A DNA stretch of 41,268 bases from an uncultured Flavobacteriales bacterium (GTDB lineage Bacteria > Bacteroidota > Bacteroidia > Flavobacteriales_D > Sanyastnellaceae). How positions within the stretch are numbered: position 1 is the first letter of the stretch; every line of letters starts with the position of its first letter. Of this stretch, positions 9,232 through 14,451 are shown one piece after another. The notes beneath the pieces are model-generated. The model worked only from the letters and a program-made list of their open reading frames with translations. It was not told the origin of the DNA and did not search any database. The stretch is from contig CALKGK010000026.1 in assembly GCA_938085105.1 (NCBI GenBank), positions 1-41,268 on the forward strand, in the 5' to 3' direction. Both the position numbers and the translations under genes were made by a program.

Positions 9232-9465
9232 CTATTGAGCGCTGGTTTTACGTTTTCTAAAAAAAACGAAGCCAAGTGTAGCAAGCAAGATGTAAGGGAT
9301 TCCCATCAGGTAAAGAATTCCACTATTGATTCCTTTACCAATGATCCCAGTGGTAGAAGAAGCATCTTCTGCTACCGCCTTACACATGACGCATTGCGCT
9401 GTACTATCTTGAATGCAGAATGCAAGAACAAGGCCAAGAATTACCAACGTTTTCCAATTTTTCAT
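9232..9465 (-). CDS. Small exported CxxC membrane protein of the oxidase operon
   Basis: This 77-residue protein has a signal peptide ending DSTAQ, followed at once by CVMC (residues 25-28), a short Ser/Thr/Gly linker, and one C-terminal membrane span (about 50-70) ending in RKRKTS. The mature protein would present a Cys pair to the periplasm while tethered to the inner membrane. I know of no assigned function. Its place after SCO and the DUF420 gene suggests a role in copper or thiol handling during oxidase assembly, by context only. A TAnnTTTG box lies 5 bases before its ATG, so it may also be transcribed alone. Confidence 0.72.
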   Translation of the reverse strand: MKNWKTLVILGLVLAFCIQDSTAQCVMCKAVAEDASSTTGIIGKGINSGILYLMGIPYILLATLGFVFFRKRKTSAQ

Positions 9466-9491: not shown

Positions 9492-10046
9492 TTAGTATGG
9501 ATAGTATTCACTGATCATGAGGTAAACCACGACACCAGTTAGGGTAACATACAGCCAAATTGGGAAGGTGATGCGTGCCCATTTTCGGTGGCGTTCTACT
9601 TGCATGCTCAAACCAAAAATATACGTAAAAAGTACCAAAGGCACGATGATAGCGCTCAGCAAGATGTGACTCAAAAGGATGAATAAATAAATTGCTCTCA
9701 CGGCTCCTTCCCCGCCAAATGATGTGCTGGGTGTGGTGAGGTGAAAGGCAACATAAGACACCAAAAACAATACAGAAAGCAACATTGCAAAGGACATGAG
9801 TGCTTTGTGAAGTGCAATTTTTTTGTTCTTAATGGCAACCAAAGCAGCAATGAGGGTGAGAAATGCTGTCCCGTTGAATATGGCGTTCAGCATTGGGAGG
9901 ATGTAAAGCTTCTCCTTGGTTTCCTGGCTGAGGTTTTCTGGCTGAGGAATGAAATAGAGCAAGGTCACTACCAACGGAATGAGGATGGATACGACAATAA
10001 CAAAGCGCTTCACTTTGCTGTCGTTGAGGAGTATGTTATTTTTCAT
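9492..10046 (-). CDS. DUF420 membrane protein (CtaM/YozB-like oxidase assembly factor)
   Basis: A 184-residue protein with five hydrophobic spans and the DUF420 pattern: LPMLNAIFNGTAFLTLI, HKALMSFAMLLSVLFLVSYV, AFHLTTPSTSFGGEG, ILLSHILLSAIIVPLVL and RHRKWARITFPIWLYVTLTG. The scattered conserved His residues (in HKALM, AFHL, LSH and ERHRKW) could bind heme or metal. The Bacillus homologue YozB/CtaM is needed for cytochrome c oxidase biogenesis, and this gene's position after SCO agrees. It overlaps the SCO gene by 11 bases, implying coupled translation. Confidence 0.88.
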   Translation of the reverse strand: MKNNILLNDSKVKRFVIVVSILIPLVVTLLYFIPQPENLSQETKEKLYILPMLNAIFNGTAFLTLIAALVAIKNKKIALHKALMSFAMLLSVLFLVSYVAFHLTTPSTSFGGEGAVRAIYLFILLSHILLSAIIVPLVLFTYIFGLSMQVERHRKWARITFPIWLYVTLTGVVVYLMISEYYPY

Positions 10047-10698
10047 TAGGTTGTTGATTAATGAGTTTTTCGATGTCCAGTAAGAGCTGATCTACATCAG
10101 TGGTAGAGGTACCATCATAGTAACCTCGAATGTGCATCTTTTGATCAATGAGGACGAAGTTATCGGAATGGAAAAATCCTCCTGCAGCAGTGTCCGAAAC
10201 TAGGGCAGTCATGAAATAACCATGTCGGGCCTGGTCATACAAGTCTTCTTGCGTCCCTGTAACAAAGTTCCAGTGTTCGAATTGTGCTCCTATTCGAGTG
10301 GCGTATTCTTTGAGTACTTGAGGTCGATCGTGTTCCGGGTCTACAGTATGACTGAGGAGTTTTACTTCTCCAAGCAGTCCTTTTTGATCAAGTAATCCTT
10401 GTAAGCGACTCATTTGAGAACTCATGATGGGGCAAATGGACGGGCAAGTGGTGAAGAAGAAGTCCGTCACGTAGATGTGGCCCTCATAATCCCGATGAGA
10501 AATCTCAAGAGAGTCTTGGTTGATGAAGCTGAATTTAGGAACAGTAAAGGCACTGCTATCACTGATGGCTCCTTGTCCATAATAGGGGAGTGCTTGTTCC
10601 TCGATGTCGGGGTCGCCACAAGCAATGAGCGCACTTGCCAAGAGCAAGCACAGATAAGCAAAGCAATTAACGTTCTTCAGCGGCTTTACGGCGATCAT
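10036..10698 (-). CDS. SCO1/SenC copper chaperone lipoprotein
   Basis: With the ATG at 10698 the product is 220 residues. A lipobox LIAC puts the lipid Cys at 27. The thioredoxin-fold domain carries the CuA-assembly ligands: FFTTCPSIC (Cys 85 and 89) and FFHSDNF (His 177), plus VDPEHDRPQVLKEYA. SCO proteins deliver copper or reduce the CuA-site cysteines of oxidase subunit II in the periplasm. A TTG 15 bases upstream is possible but would put a charged extension before the signal. It overlaps the end of the SCO-like paralogue by 32 bases. Confidence 0.95.
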   Translation of the reverse strand: MIAVKPLKNVNCFAYLCLLLASALIACGDPDIEEQALPYYGQGAISDSSAFTVPKFSFINQDSLEISHRDYEGHIYVTDFFFTTCPSICPIMSSQMSRLQGLLDQKGLLGEVKLLSHTVDPEHDRPQVLKEYATRIGAQFEHWNFVTGTQEDLYDQARHGYFMTALVSDTAAGGFFHSDNFVLIDQKMHIRGYYDGTSTTDVDQLLLDIEKLINQQPNEK

Positions 10699-11344
10699 AT
10701 TCCTTTTTATCAATTTCCTTTTTTAGGAGGGCGATGTCTTCGATGGCGTCCTTGATTTCATCCTCGCGGTTGCCTTCATACCTTCCTCTAACATATCCTT
10801 CCGTATCAACAAGAAAAACCACAGAAGTGTTCTCCAAGTCTTGGTGTTCGAATCCCGTGCGAATTAGTTCGTGGATTTTGTCTTGATCTCCTGTAAGAAA
10901 TTGCCACTTTCCCTCAAATTGATTGTAGCGAGTTGCATCATCAATGTAGGTCTTGAGTACCTCTGGGGTGTCATGCTCCGTATCCATGGAGAAGGATACT
11001 TGATAGATGTCGGCTTCGTTGCGGTAACGGAAATTCGGCCAAAGGAGTCGGCGAGTAATTTTGCCGATGTACTTATTATTGGTTCCATAAAAGGATGCCA
11101 ACCAAACCTTTCCTTTGAGAGAGTCGGAATGAAAGGTCTCTCCTTCTTGGTTGATGAAGCTAAAACTTGGGAGCTTCTTGTAAATGGTGTCTCCACTTTG
11201 CTCATTTACAGTGTAACTTCCGTAATAGGGAAGTGTGCTGAATTCATGGGTGCTGCCTACTCCAAAAAACAGCAACCAAGAGAGTGGAAATAAAAAAAGT
11301 ACACCAATTAATAAGATGTACTTTTTGATCGAATTATTTTTCAT
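10667..11344 (-). CDS. SCO1-like paralogue without copper ligands
   Basis: This 225-residue protein is a divergent copy of its downstream neighbour: both share LPYYG, then a PSFSFINQ/PKFSFINQ stretch, DTEHDTPEVLKTY versus DPEHDRPQVLKEY, and RGRYEG versus RGYYDG. The SCO active site is gone: TTCPSIC is replaced by GTNNKYI (Asn 90 and Ile 94 for the two Cys), and the His is Asn 172. An N-terminal membrane anchor (about 9-28) replaces the lipobox, and the tail is a charged, probably helical stretch rich in Lys and Glu. It cannot bind copper in the usual way; a scaffold or partner role for the active SCO is my inference. It sits 3 bases after the subunit IV gene. Confidence 0.85.
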   Translation of the reverse strand: MKNNSIKKYILLIGVLFLFPLSWLLFFGVGSTHEFSTLPYYGSYTVNEQSGDTIYKKLPSFSFINQEGETFHSDSLKGKVWLASFYGTNNKYIGKITRRLLWPNFRYRNEADIYQVSFSMDTEHDTPEVLKTYIDDATRYNQFEGKWQFLTGDQDKIHELIRTGFEHQDLENTSVVFLVDTEGYVRGRYEGNREDEIKDAIEDIALLKKEIDKKEYDRRKAAEER

Positions 11345-11347
11345 GTC

Positions 11348-11725
11348 TTAGTGGAACATTTCAAACATATCTAATTGAAAGTTTCCTTCCGTTAATGCGA
11401 TAAATATCAAGTAAATGATAAACACAGCATAAGGGATCAATACCACGTTTCTCAGGTTCTTACGTTCATCACCCAAGTGCATAAATGACATTACAATGTA
11501 TCCCGCCTTTACGAGGGTCAAAACGATGAAGCCAATTTTTACGGTGGTCCAAAGTCCAGAGTCAGCTCTTTTCACTGCAATCCCCAATGCTACTTCAACA
11601 ATGGTAATGAGGGTGAGAATTCCTGTTACAACCCAGATTTTACGACGGATTTTCTTTCCTGCCTCGTCGTTGTGGGTGTTGTTCAGAGCGTATGATTCGT
11701 TAACAATAAGATCGTCTCTTTCCAT
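11348..11725 (-). CDS. Cytochrome c oxidase subunit IV (prokaryotic COX4/CyoD-like)
   Basis: A 125-residue protein with a charged N-terminus (about 1-30) and three membrane spans. The core VKIGFIVLTLVKAGYIVMSF, followed by MHLGDERKN, matches the caa3/bo3 subunit IV family, whose hallmark is a membrane helix followed by FMHL. It stabilises the heme-copper oxidase complex in the inner membrane. It lies 26 bases after the second subunit III gene and 3 bases before the SCO-like gene, inside one transcription unit. Confidence 0.9.
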   Translation of the reverse strand: MERDDLIVNESYALNNTHNDEAGKKIRRKIWVVTGILTLITIVEVALGIAVKRADSGLWTTVKIGFIVLTLVKAGYIVMSFMHLGDERKNLRNVVLIPYAVFIIYLIFIALTEGNFQLDMFEMFH

Positions 11726-11751: not shown

Positions 11752-12738
11752 TTAAACGAGGTAAAAGAAGGTAAATACAAATACCCAAACAAGGTCTACA
11801 AAGTGCCAGTACAAACCAACCTTTTCAACCATTTCATAGTGTCCTCGGCGCTCAAATACACCTCTCACCACCATGATAAATACAATCAGGTTGATGATTA
11901 CACCAGAGAAAACGTGGAATCCGTGGAATCCTGTAATGAAGAAGAAGAAGTTGGCATATTGTTGCTGCACTCCATATTCGTTCTCATTCATGTTGGCTCC
12001 AAATACAAAACCATTGCTTGCTTGAGCGTTCCACAATTTCATCATGTCAGCACCAGTCACTGTGGCTGCATCTTCAACGTATTTGTTGACCATTACTTCC
12101 TCTAGAGCCGCAGTATGTCCATGACCAGTAAGCGTTACTGTTCCGTTGCTCTCCACCATCGTTACTTCAGGGTCGCCGTGCAAGTAATCTTCGAGCAAGG
12201 TTCCAAAGTGATGATCCATGAAAATGCGGTCCGCGGAATTCAGGTCAAATTGCATGGTGTTTCCGTCAGCAAGCGTTCCCGTTACGGTCATTGCTTGTGA
12301 AATTTTAAATGCACCACCACCACCGTGGATGAAGTGGCTCCATTCCCAAGCTTGTGAACCAACAAAGAAGAAACCACCGATAACGGTAAGTCCCATCCAT
12401 TTGATCACATCTTTTTTGTGGTTACGATGACCGGCTTCAACGGCCAATACCATGGTCACTGAGGATACGATGAGAATAAACGTCATCAATGCAACATAGG
12501 CCAAAGGATAGTGTCCTTCAAGACCAGGAAGTGCCTGAAACACTTGTTCACCGATCGGCCAAGCGAATTCAGAGCTATGACGAGCAACGCCATACGCAAT
12601 GAGTAATCCACCGAATGTGAGTGCATCGGATACTAGAAAGTACCACATCATCATTTTCCCGTAGCTAACGGAAAACGGGGAGCGTCCACCGCCCCACAAC
12701 TCTTCTTTTGAAATAGCTTTGCTTGCTTCGCTTGACAT
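11752..12738 (-). CDS. Cytochrome c oxidase subunit III with a large insertion (copy 2)
   Basis: This 328-residue subunit III keeps the membrane core (FSVSYGKMMMWYFLVSDALT, QAWEWSHF, FFFITGFHGFHVFSG and a final GLYWHFVDLVWVFVFTFFYL). Between the middle helices it has an extra polar region of about 110 residues (about 140-255), with several His and acidic residues, that ordinary 200-residue bacterial subunit III lacks. Subunit III helps keep proton uptake in subunit I stable. It follows the shorter subunit III by 24 bases. Subunits I and II are not in the window. Confidence 0.93.
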   Translation of the reverse strand: MSSEASKAISKEELWGGGRSPFSVSYGKMMMWYFLVSDALTFGGLLIAYGVARHSSEFAWPIGEQVFQALPGLEGHYPLAYVALMTFILIVSSVTMVLAVEAGHRNHKKDVIKWMGLTVIGGFFFVGSQAWEWSHFIHGGGGAFKISQAMTVTGTLADGNTMQFDLNSADRIFMDHHFGTLLEDYLHGDPEVTMVESNGTVTLTGHGHTAALEEVMVNKYVEDAATVTGADMMKLWNAQASNGFVFGANMNENEYGVQQQYANFFFFITGFHGFHVFSGVIINLIVFIMVVRGVFERRGHYEMVEKVGLYWHFVDLVWVFVFTFFYLV

Positions 12739-12762: not shown

Positions 12763-13545
12763 TTAATGAATATAGAACAAAAACACGAACAAATAGATCC
12801 ATAATATACCGAGGAAATGCCAGTAAATTCCGTTCGTGTGCAATTGAATGTGATCTTGAGCGTTGATTTTATTCTTCGAAATGCGAATGAGATTTACGAT
12901 CAAATAGATCAAACCAAAGCTCAGGTGAATGATGTGCACCCAAAGTAAAGCCCAGATGTATGCCCCGCTATTGTTGGTGTTGCGGTACACTTCCTTCGTA
13001 ATTGGGTCGGTCTTCAAGGGGTCACTCGGAGCATAGTATTCTCCGTTTTGAAAGTCGAGTTCTTGTCCGTCAATTTCAACCACATAATCCACTCCGTACT
13101 CTCCGGTAATTTGTTCAATGTTGTTCCATCGATAGGCCGGACCAAGGTCAGTTTCAGTGATGGACCATCCCATGCCTTTACTCGCCAATTGCCCCCAACC
13201 GCTTATTTGAGTGATCACAAATGCGATTCCCAGCAAGAAGGTAACGAGCGTCAACATTTGCGCTGAGCTCTGGTTTCCTGCTTTCACTTGTCGGTGTGCC
13301 ATGATGATGGTCAAACTGCTCACCAAGAGGATGATGTTGCTCGCCCAAAGTGTTGAATTTGGGTTGATGTGGACCCAATAGCTTCCCATGCTGCTCACGA
13401 TGTAAGCACTGGTTAACCCGGCAAAAAGCATCACAATGGCGAAAACGATGAAGTACATCATCATTTTTTTTGTGCGCTGACGAACAGCTGGGTCAACATT
13501 GTCAAAAACCCCGGGTTTCTTTGCTGTGGTGGTAGATTCGCTCAT
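12763..13545 (-). CDS. Cytochrome c oxidase subunit III (copy 1)
   Basis: A 260-residue subunit III-family protein: MMMYFIVFAIVMLFAGLTSA, a His-Arg after the second span, and a closing GIYWHFLGILWIYLFVFLFY. It too has an insertion (about 118-193, rich in Asp, Tyr and Asn) between membrane spans, at the position where copy 2 has its larger one, so the two copies may contact each other or subunit II with these loops. It begins 3 bases after ctaB. Two consecutive subunit III-type genes followed by subunit IV is the usual Bacteroidota order. Confidence 0.92.
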   Translation of the reverse strand: MSESTTTAKKPGVFDNVDPAVRQRTKKMMMYFIVFAIVMLFAGLTSAYIVSSMGSYWVHINPNSTLWASNIILLVSSLTIIMAHRQVKAGNQSSAQMLTLVTFLLGIAFVITQISGWGQLASKGMGWSITETDLGPAYRWNNIEQITGEYGVDYVVEIDGQELDFQNGEYYAPSDPLKTDPITKEVYRNTNNSGAYIWALLWVHIIHLSFGLIYLIVNLIRISKNKINAQDHIQLHTNGIYWHFLGILWIYLFVFLFYIH

Positions 13546-13548
13546 TTT

Positions 13549-14451
13549 TTAAAGTTTATCGATGACGTAAAATAATTGAACGATCGGAAGGTAAATGAAG
13601 GAAGCGAACATCAAAATCTTGGCATCTTTCAATGCACATGTTCGGTATAGTTTAAAGGCGAGGAAGGCAAAAACAACCCCACATAAAAGGGTCACAACCA
13701 TTGCAATATTTCCCACCATGGGGGATTCAAAAGGTAAAACCCACGGCAATAAGCTCACCGGGATTAAGAAAAGACTGTAAATCAAAATCTGGAATGCTGC
13801 TCTTCGTGAGCGTCCTTCACGGAAAGGAAGAAGTCGGTACCCCGCTTTTAAATAATCGTCATGAGCAACCCAAGCAATGGCCCAAAAGTGAGGGAACTGC
13901 CACATGAATTGAACCGCAAACAACGAACCGGGCTCTACTCCAAAATCACCTGTAGCGGCTACGTAACCCAACATGGGAGGAATGGCTCCAGGAAAGGCAC
14001 CGATGAACACCGCAAGTGGTGTTTTGGCCTTCAGGGGAGTATAAAGAAAGACATAAAAGAAAAGGGCAACCAAACCGAGAATTCCGGCAATGTCGTTCAA
14101 GAAATACCAAAGTGTAAAGATGCCCAGTATGCCTGCTATGCTGGCGGTAAGCAATCCTTGCGCTACAGACATTCTGCCTTGTGGCATTGGACGATCTGCG
14201 GTGCGCGACATGAGCTTGTCGATGTCTCGCTCCCAAACCTGATTGAAGCCGTTAGATGCTCCAGTGAGAAGCATTCCTCCTGCAATCAGTGCAAAAAATT
14301 GCGACCAGATCATTTGTTCGGCACCCATGAAGTAACCCAAAACGGAGGATAAAACGACAATCACAGACAGTTTCAACTTAAAGAACAATCCAAGGTCCTT
14401 GATCCGTGAGGTAAATGTGGTGGTGCTATTGTTGATGCTTTCGGCTTTCAA
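13549..14451 (-). CDS. ctaB: Protoheme IX farnesyltransferase (heme O synthase)
   Basis: This 300-residue polytopic protein joins a farnesyl chain to heme b to give heme O, the precursor of heme A for aa3/caa3 oxidases. The prenyl-diphosphate-binding signature NQVWERDIDKLMSRTADRP (70-88) is clear, as are TPLKAKTPLAVFIGAFPGA and the YLKAGYRLLPFREGRSR loop. The start is TTG (14451), with a TAnnTTTG box 21 bases upstream. It is the first gene of the oxidase accessory operon. No ctaA (heme A synthase) is nearby. Confidence 0.96.
   Translation of the reverse strand: MKAESINNSTTTFTSRIKDLGLFFKLKLSVIVVLSSVLGYFMGAEQMIWSQFFALIAGGMLLTGASNGFNQVWERDIDKLMSRTADRPMPQGRMSVAQGLLTASIAGILGIFTLWYFLNDIAGILGLVALFFYVFLYTPLKAKTPLAVFIGAFPGAIPPMLGYVAATGDFGVEPGSLFAVQFMWQFPHFWAIAWVAHDDYLKAGYRLLPFREGRSRRAAFQILIYSLFLIPVSLLPWVLPFESPMVGNIAMVVTLLCGVVFAFLAFKLYRTCALKDAKILMFASFIYLPIVQLFYVIDKL

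Follow-up and report, generated by a model that had tools for sequence, protein, structure and literature searches.

A ligandless SCO paralogue adjoining the active SCO in the cytochrome c oxidase operon of a Flavobacteriales family

Two SCO genes in an oxidase operon

The stretch of DNA analyzed in this study (the window, 41,268 nucleotides) spans positions 1-41,268 of contig CALKGK010000026.1 (assembly GCA_938085105.1), which originates from an uncultured Flavobacteriales bacterium of the Sanyastnellaceae. Its reading frames and Pfam matches delineate a minus-strand oxidase operon with the gene order ctaB-cox3-cox3-cox4-SCO-D-SCO-A-DUF420, where SCO-D designates a copper-blind SCO-like protein and SCO-A the neighbouring active SCO. 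The features of the operon are listed by coordinate:

9492..10046, minus strand: DUF420 protein of the CtaM family, an oxidase assembly factor (PF04238, 151.6 bits)
10036..10698 (from the first ATG), minus strand: SCO-A, with CPSIC and the His intact and a lipoprotein-type signal (LIAC) (open reading frame, Pfam, alignments)
10667..11344, minus strand: SCO-D, 225 aa, an N-terminal TM helix and an SCO/thioredoxin-fold domain without the CxxxC or the ligand His (open reading frame, Pfam, model)
10829..10831, minus strand: position of SCO-D opposite the ligand His, Asn172 (multiple alignment)
11063..11077, minus strand: lost CxxxC site of SCO-D, Asn90-Lys-Tyr-Ile-Gly94 (alignments)
11258..11338, minus strand: N-terminal membrane helix predicted for SCO-D at residues 3-29 (from the AF2 secondary structure and a hydrophobic stretch)
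11348..11725, minus strand: cytochrome c oxidase subunit IV, prokaryotic type (PF03626)
11752..12738, minus strand: cytochrome c oxidase subunit III, second gene (PF00510)
12763..13545, minus strand: cytochrome c oxidase subunit III, first gene (PF00510)
13549..14451, minus strand: UbiA-family protein, taken as haem O synthase (ctaB) by its place in the operon (PF01040)

The SCO-A frame opens at a TTG (10713) and contains its first ATG at 10698; because of these two possible starts, the overlap between the SCO-D and SCO-A genes amounts to 47 or 32 bases. A preliminary description of this DNA had placed two overlapping SCO genes within the oxidase operon, and this arrangement was confirmed, with the pair lying between coxIV and ctaM (the DUF420 gene). 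A third SCO gene in the genome is unlinked and has an intact site. A promoter scan of the operon returned five matches against a mean of 8.9 in shuffles, i.e., fewer than the shuffled sequences. Positions 9232-9465 (minus strand), flanked by the DUF420 gene and an OmpA-like gene, encode a membrane protein of 77 aa that contains a CVMCK motif; short open reading frames with a similar C-x-M-C-[RK] motif were seen at 50 of 70 loci scanned, some of these loci being duplicates or too short.

SCO proteins are described as thioredoxin-fold proteins with a CXXXCXnH motif that are anchored by a transmembrane segment or a lipid (PMC9145763, in part). The assignment of SCO-D to this family was supported by several comparisons. 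The protein matches the Pfam SCO1-SenC model (PF02630) at 39.2 bits, above the cut-off of 22.8 (SCO-A: 92.2 bits), aligns with SCO-A at 28% identity over 217 columns (BLASTP, E 1e-19), and its profile matches active SCOs at 100% in a profile comparison. The AF2 model (34 rows; pLDDT 87.0, pTM 0.76) predicts a TM helix followed by an SCO-type thioredoxin fold, for which the best PDB match by Foldseek is 4hde (E 2.6e-14), followed by BsSco, with all top matches being SCO proteins. Searched against solved chains, the SCO-D family profile retrieved SCO chains only (six at E 0.01). Therefore, the earlier reading of SCO-D as a paralogue of the normal SCO that it adjoins was borne out.

The copper ligands of SCO-A are complete, with CPSICP and FFHSD motifs containing Cys85 (codon 10444-10446), Cys89 (10432-10434) and His177 (10168-10170), all numbered from the first ATG. 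At the CxxxC stretch, SCO-D reads N90-K-Y-I-G94, such that the previously proposed Asn at position 90 was correct and the proposed Ile at 94 was not; residue 94 is a Gly and the Ile is residue 93. The proposed replacement of the ligand His by Asn172 held in multiple alignments; in pairwise alignments the SCO-A His falls opposite a gap. Lacking both the CxxxC and the ligand His, SCO-D would, judged by its residues, not act as a copper chaperone. The loss of the ligands is not a chance feature of one genome, since the CxxxC is found in none of the homologues read at this locus. An artefact of sequencing or a frameshift was likewise rejected, as the ligandless site recurs in 68 distinct sequences and the fusions described below occur in many assemblies.

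A replacement metal site was also considered and rejected. No Cys or Met is conserved in SCO-D and the sole invariant His is H33, which adjoins the membrane and is also present in single SCOs; there is therefore no sign of such a site. The segments that are conserved in 20 aligned SCO-D sequences comprise T-x2-LL-x2-N, located in the helix behind the former CxxxC position, and the C-terminal segments R-G-x-Y and E-D-I-A-L-L-K-K-E, the last of which cannot be tested for conservation in the loci from named assemblies because those were retrieved by that segment. Finally, a degenerate CuA site as the explanation for a degenerate SCO was rejected, as on reading the subunit II of this genome the CuA ligands were found to be kept (CNKVCGSAHFNM and VIHS). 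A single, weak COX2 match (22.7 bits) was obtained for the genome. In locus L166 (contig C41 of the same genome; 9827-11248, minus strand), a long insertion rich in His, HLHEHHAGHGHADEHAEEGHDEHHGHEG, precedes the CuA motif of subunit II and may explain the partial, weak Pfam match.

Conservation and fusion of the pair within the family

Within the family of the window, 98 of 101 genomes gave a match in the SCO-D search; this count exceeds the true one because ordinary SCOs match as well, as was the case in four of these genomes (G029, G036, G051 and G061). SCO-D itself is present in 94 of the 101 genomes and in 20 of 21 genera, three times as a fragment (G060, G062 and G069). In an order-wide search, full-length family members scored at least 218 bits and the best match outside of the family 137 bits. 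Of the seven genomes without SCO-D, five (G029, G036, G051, G077 and G085) also lack a DUF420 match, one has a contig that starts inside the active SCO domain (G061), and one has a contig that ends approximately 60 bases upstream of the DUF420 gene (G017). With genus g17 set aside, none of these seven exceptions represents an intact operon without SCO-D. The gene order ctaB-cox3-cox3-cox4-D-A-DUF420 is constant in every family locus that is long enough, and the pairing of SCO-D with the active SCO in a fixed order agrees with the co-conservation that the preliminary description had anticipated. Several metagenome bins labelled Chryseobacterium gleum carry the family operon (L072, L080, L089, L091 and L093), and these labels are probably wrong.

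The operon was read in at least one genome from each of the 20 genera with SCO-D, giving 28 family loci with the gene, of which 26 are complete, and the frame is open in all 26. For the alignments, 26 representatives were obtained from the 28 loci by removing two cut loci (L055 and L067) and one in which SCO-A was masked (L057) and by adding the window; a broader set of 68 distinct full SCO-D sequences combined search hits with sequences taken from operon loci and from named records. A CxxxC was found in 0 of the 26 representatives in the multiple alignment, and a Cys pair at the site in 0 of the 68 distinct sequences. The His column is more variable, with N in 17 representatives, H in five, S in two, and E and R in one each. 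The expectation that the ligands would be consistently missing at this locus therefore holds for the CxxxC and in part only for the His, which five of the 26 retain. Most of the distinct sequences (57/68) contain zero or one cysteine, and a CX2-5C pattern elsewhere in the chain occurs in three of the 68, assigned by eye to the TM helix, the linker at the N-terminus and the strand that follows the site.

Between the window and one congener, SCO-D is 90% identical and SCO-A 74%, and three methods put the SCO-D dN/dS at 0.046, 0.032 and 0.072, synonymous sites being close to saturation. Over all 325 pairs of the 26 representatives, mean identity is 43% for D versus 49% for A, with D the higher in 18% of the pairs, and the identities of D and A are correlated (r 0.78).

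In six genera, D and A are joined in a single protein, mostly of 400-460 residues, comprising a TM helix, the blind domain, a long helix and the active domain. This fusion was seen at seven of the 26 complete family loci, in 34 of the 68 distinct D sequences, and at 19 of 45 loci from named assemblies (two of the 19 being cut); by a hand count with an open frame of at least 375 codons as the sole criterion, 46 of the 94 SCO-D genomes are fused. The AF2 model of a fused protein contains two SCO-like domains and one TM helix, located before D; at a pTM of 0.56 it fixes neither the packing of D against A nor an interface. In 16 aligned fused proteins, no hydrophobic stretch, Cys or lipobox precedes the A domain. 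Thus, it is the ligandless copy that provides the membrane helix, and in the fusions it serves as the anchor for the active domain. Among 38 separate SCO-A-like sequences, 20 match the strict lipobox pattern and 11 more have a plausible Gly/Ala/Ser-Cys by eye; the remaining seven are unlinked SCOs, cut frames or sequences with a doubtful start. At one locus of a fused genus (L068, 5172-6490, minus strand; G030), D and A are read as two frames with a 4-base overlap, reflecting either a re-split or an assembly error.

The coxIV-ctaM slot in other families

A further 100 loci from outside of the family were chosen from search results, and the interval was read at the 70 loci in which coxIV and DUF420 were recognised on one strand. 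A tandem SCO pair fills 38 of these 70 intervals, with one further pair at a locus where coxIV was not recognised (L155); pairs occur in five further families of the order, and the slot of some families holds a single TM-anchored SCO. In the tree set, the upstream copies in the five other families contain a Cys pair in 30 of 31 cases (CX3C to CX5C) and the His in 0 of 31. Every downstream copy of this set has both the CxxxC and the His, both outside of the window's family (39/39, six families) and within it (26/26). In total, the full ligand set was found in 0 of 57 upstream copies and in 65 of 65 downstream copies; the eight upstream proteins of family f6 are not included in the 57 nor in the tree, and their eight active partners are counted in the 65.

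A careful tree was built from 96 of 160 rows. Loci L247 and L251 repeat L167 and L149. One locus with a short or broken upstream gene (L170) was left out, and L204, L216, L220, L228, L242 and L243 were excluded as too divergent or not clearly of the same operon. This tree supports a D clade (100/100), a clade of the other upstream copies (100/99) and a clade of the order's downstream active copies (100/98). The grouping of D with the other upstream copies against all else received 92/82 in the careful tree and is suggestive rather than established; D stands apart from them in a quicker tree of all 160 rows. If D and the other upstream copies do form one clade, a single old duplication would account for them, with the His lost first and the Cys pair lost later in the window's family.

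More divergent proteins were also found in the same slot. In family f6, which lies outside of the order, all eight upstream proteins read lack a Cys pair and barely resemble one another in sequence. Slot proteins of only 156-179 aa that keep an N-terminal hydrophobic stretch were observed in families f7, f8 and f10 (L204, 877-1416, minus strand; L216, 3582-4052, plus strand; L220, 856-1380, minus strand; L242, 3586-4098, plus strand; L243, 3570-4109, plus strand). The profile matches of these groups to active SCOs (99.1% for f6, 99.0% for three shrunken f8/f10 proteins and 94.6% for two f7 proteins) are weaker than they look, as each comes from one pairwise comparison made with the TM helix included and no unrelated profile as a control; none of five slot proteins from f6, f8, f10 and f7 matched the Pfam SCO model. 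Among the single slot SCOs of the tree set, five of 25 are without part of the ligand set. One of them (L149, 5971-6672, plus strand; G425) reads SSTNGP at the CxxxCP position and keeps the His; the SCOs of its family are otherwise normal, its congener L167 has an intact motif, and its own genome contains an intact SCO elsewhere (L248), which makes a recent, independent ligand loss possible. A distant hit labelled Tenacibaculum (L112) was discarded because both Cys and the His are present, as in any ordinary SCO. Overall, ligand-poor or shrunken SCO-like proteins occupy the same slot in other Bacteroidota.

A proposed docking role for the ligandless copy and its alternatives

SCO-D shares its family, fold, N-terminal anchor and position beside oxidase genes with the SCO1/SenC chaperones, such as YpmQ (BsSco) of B. 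subtilis, 4hde of B. anthracis and mitochondrial SCO1 and SCO2, and differs from them in having neither the CxxxC nor the ligand His. The protein encoded next in the operon resembles CtaM of Bacillus and Staphylococcus, a DUF420 protein described as an assembly factor for A-family oxidases that is needed for aa3 activity; unlike SCO-D, CtaM has four or five TM segments and no SCO fold (PMC9145763, in part). A precedent for SCO-D is plant HCC2, an SCO paralogue in which the cysteines and the histidine are absent and which exists beside an intact SCO, HCC1 (PMC3971200 and PMC6696091, both in part). HCC2 interacts with the metallochaperone module, is a mitochondrial protein, keeps five cysteines once its signal is cleaved off and is dispensable for the activity of the oxidase (PMC3971200, PMC6696091). 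SCO-D, for its part, is encoded in an oxidase operon, contains at most one cysteine in 57 of 68 distinct sequences and, in six genera, forms one chain with the active SCO. The two may be regarded as analogous in state, with no claim of a common origin. SCO-D is therefore a bacterial, operon-bound and partly fused version of the ligandless SCO paralogue already known from plants. Narrow term searches of the open-access literature turned up neither a ligandless SCO from bacteria nor an SCO-SCO fusion, which does not imply absence from print. A genome survey of Sco proteins was reportedly carried out by Banci and colleagues in 2007. In the accessible part of a paper on the oxidase partner complex of Flavobacterium johnsoniae, Sco is not mentioned.

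Combined, these results are best explained by SCO-D being a membrane-anchored, copper-blind docking partner for CuA and oxidase assembly, rather than a copper carrier, an explanation that is favoured here with somewhat better than even confidence. This role is probable because SCO-D is conserved and is fused to the normal SCO in some relatives. SCO-D would be an old tandem paralogue of its neighbour that gave up copper chemistry while keeping its anchor in the membrane, its SCO fold and presumably the surfaces used for docking. Placed next to the aa3-type oxidase as this is being assembled in the membrane, it would hold the active SCO (a lipoprotein in this organism, the C-terminal half of the same protein in six related genera) at the subunit II CuA domain, at CtaM or at both, with copper delivery and thiol reduction left to SCO-A. 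Presenting the active SCO to the CuA domain, or holding subunit II or CtaM, would explain the operon position, the co-conservation, the fusions and the ligand-poor slot proteins. The partnership of D and A is well supported; physical contact between them in unfused species, the target of docking and an effect on oxidase activity are presumed. Of the three roles that the preliminary description had suggested, the natural fusions favour that of a scaffold or physical partner, keeping in mind that a fusion could also stem merely from gene adjacency, and a redox-blind chaperone of the copper site would fit the ligand loss; the third, a regulatory partner, is weighed below. Against the docking role stands the lower conservation of D compared with A (43% vs. 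49%). In addition, ligand-poor slot SCOs of other families stand without an adjacent active SCO, so the conserved partner may be the oxidase or CtaM instead of SCO-A.

An alternative is that SCO-D stays permanently in the mature oxidase, or in its supercomplex, as an accessory subunit that has an SCO fold by happenstance. The gene lies directly behind that of subunit IV, the slot is filled by an SCO-like protein even without an adjacent active SCO, and SCO-D is strongly conserved between congeners. However, the fusion in six genera would bind a chaperone to every oxidase, and the SCO-D profile matches only SCO among solved chains (the distant slot protein L229 matches none), leaving this explanation unlikely. 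A mere membrane anchor or spacer for SCO-A, i.e., a passenger with no surface role, would suit the fused proteins, whose active domain is not anchored separately, and the slot proteins of other families that have shrunk to 156-179 aa and kept the N-terminal hydrophobic stretch. It is rather unlikely given that unfused SCO-A proteins mostly have their own lipoprotein signal (20 of 38 by the strict pattern and 11 by eye) and SCO-D is still kept, with fold motifs including T-x2-LL-x2-N and R-G-x-Y conserved in the 20 aligned sequences.

A copper-independent function in stress or redox homeostasis has been proposed for HCC2, which rescues the oxidative stress sensitivity of yeast without a copper motif (PMC6307045 and PMC3971200, both in part). 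Its transfer to SCO-D appears quite improbable, given the lack of a conserved cysteine in SCO-D, its fixed place in the oxidase operon and its fusion with the active SCO in six genera. Regulation of SCO-A, for example by a heterodimer that blocks or times copper transfer, would be in keeping with a paralogue found beside and fused with the active SCO, and paralogues that behave in this way are exemplified by human SCO2, which acts on SCO1 (PMC3971200, in part); the chance assigned to this role is slim. Decay of a functionless duplicate would account for the loss of all ligands in the window and for the very divergent or shrunken proteins in the same slot elsewhere. It is already contradicted by the low dN/dS, the 90% identity between congeners, the presence in 94 of 101 genomes and the open frame in 26 of 26 complete loci, and is given almost no credence.

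The docking role proposed for SCO-D bears on how SCO proteins serve the CuA site, because the functions ascribed to them there (copper delivery, thiol reduction, and docking or presenting subunit II) are hard to separate in one protein. In these bacteria, evolution has separated them into a ligandless anchored copy and a ligand-bearing copy, with natural fusions of both. Tentatively, and at somewhat less than even confidence, Bacteroidota may more generally divide the SCO job between an anchored docking SCO without a complete copper site in the coxIV-ctaM slot and a separate active SCO, with the slot protein being a general, unnamed part of CuA-oxidase assembly. If this is true, the slot protein shows that SCO docking and copper chemistry are separable.
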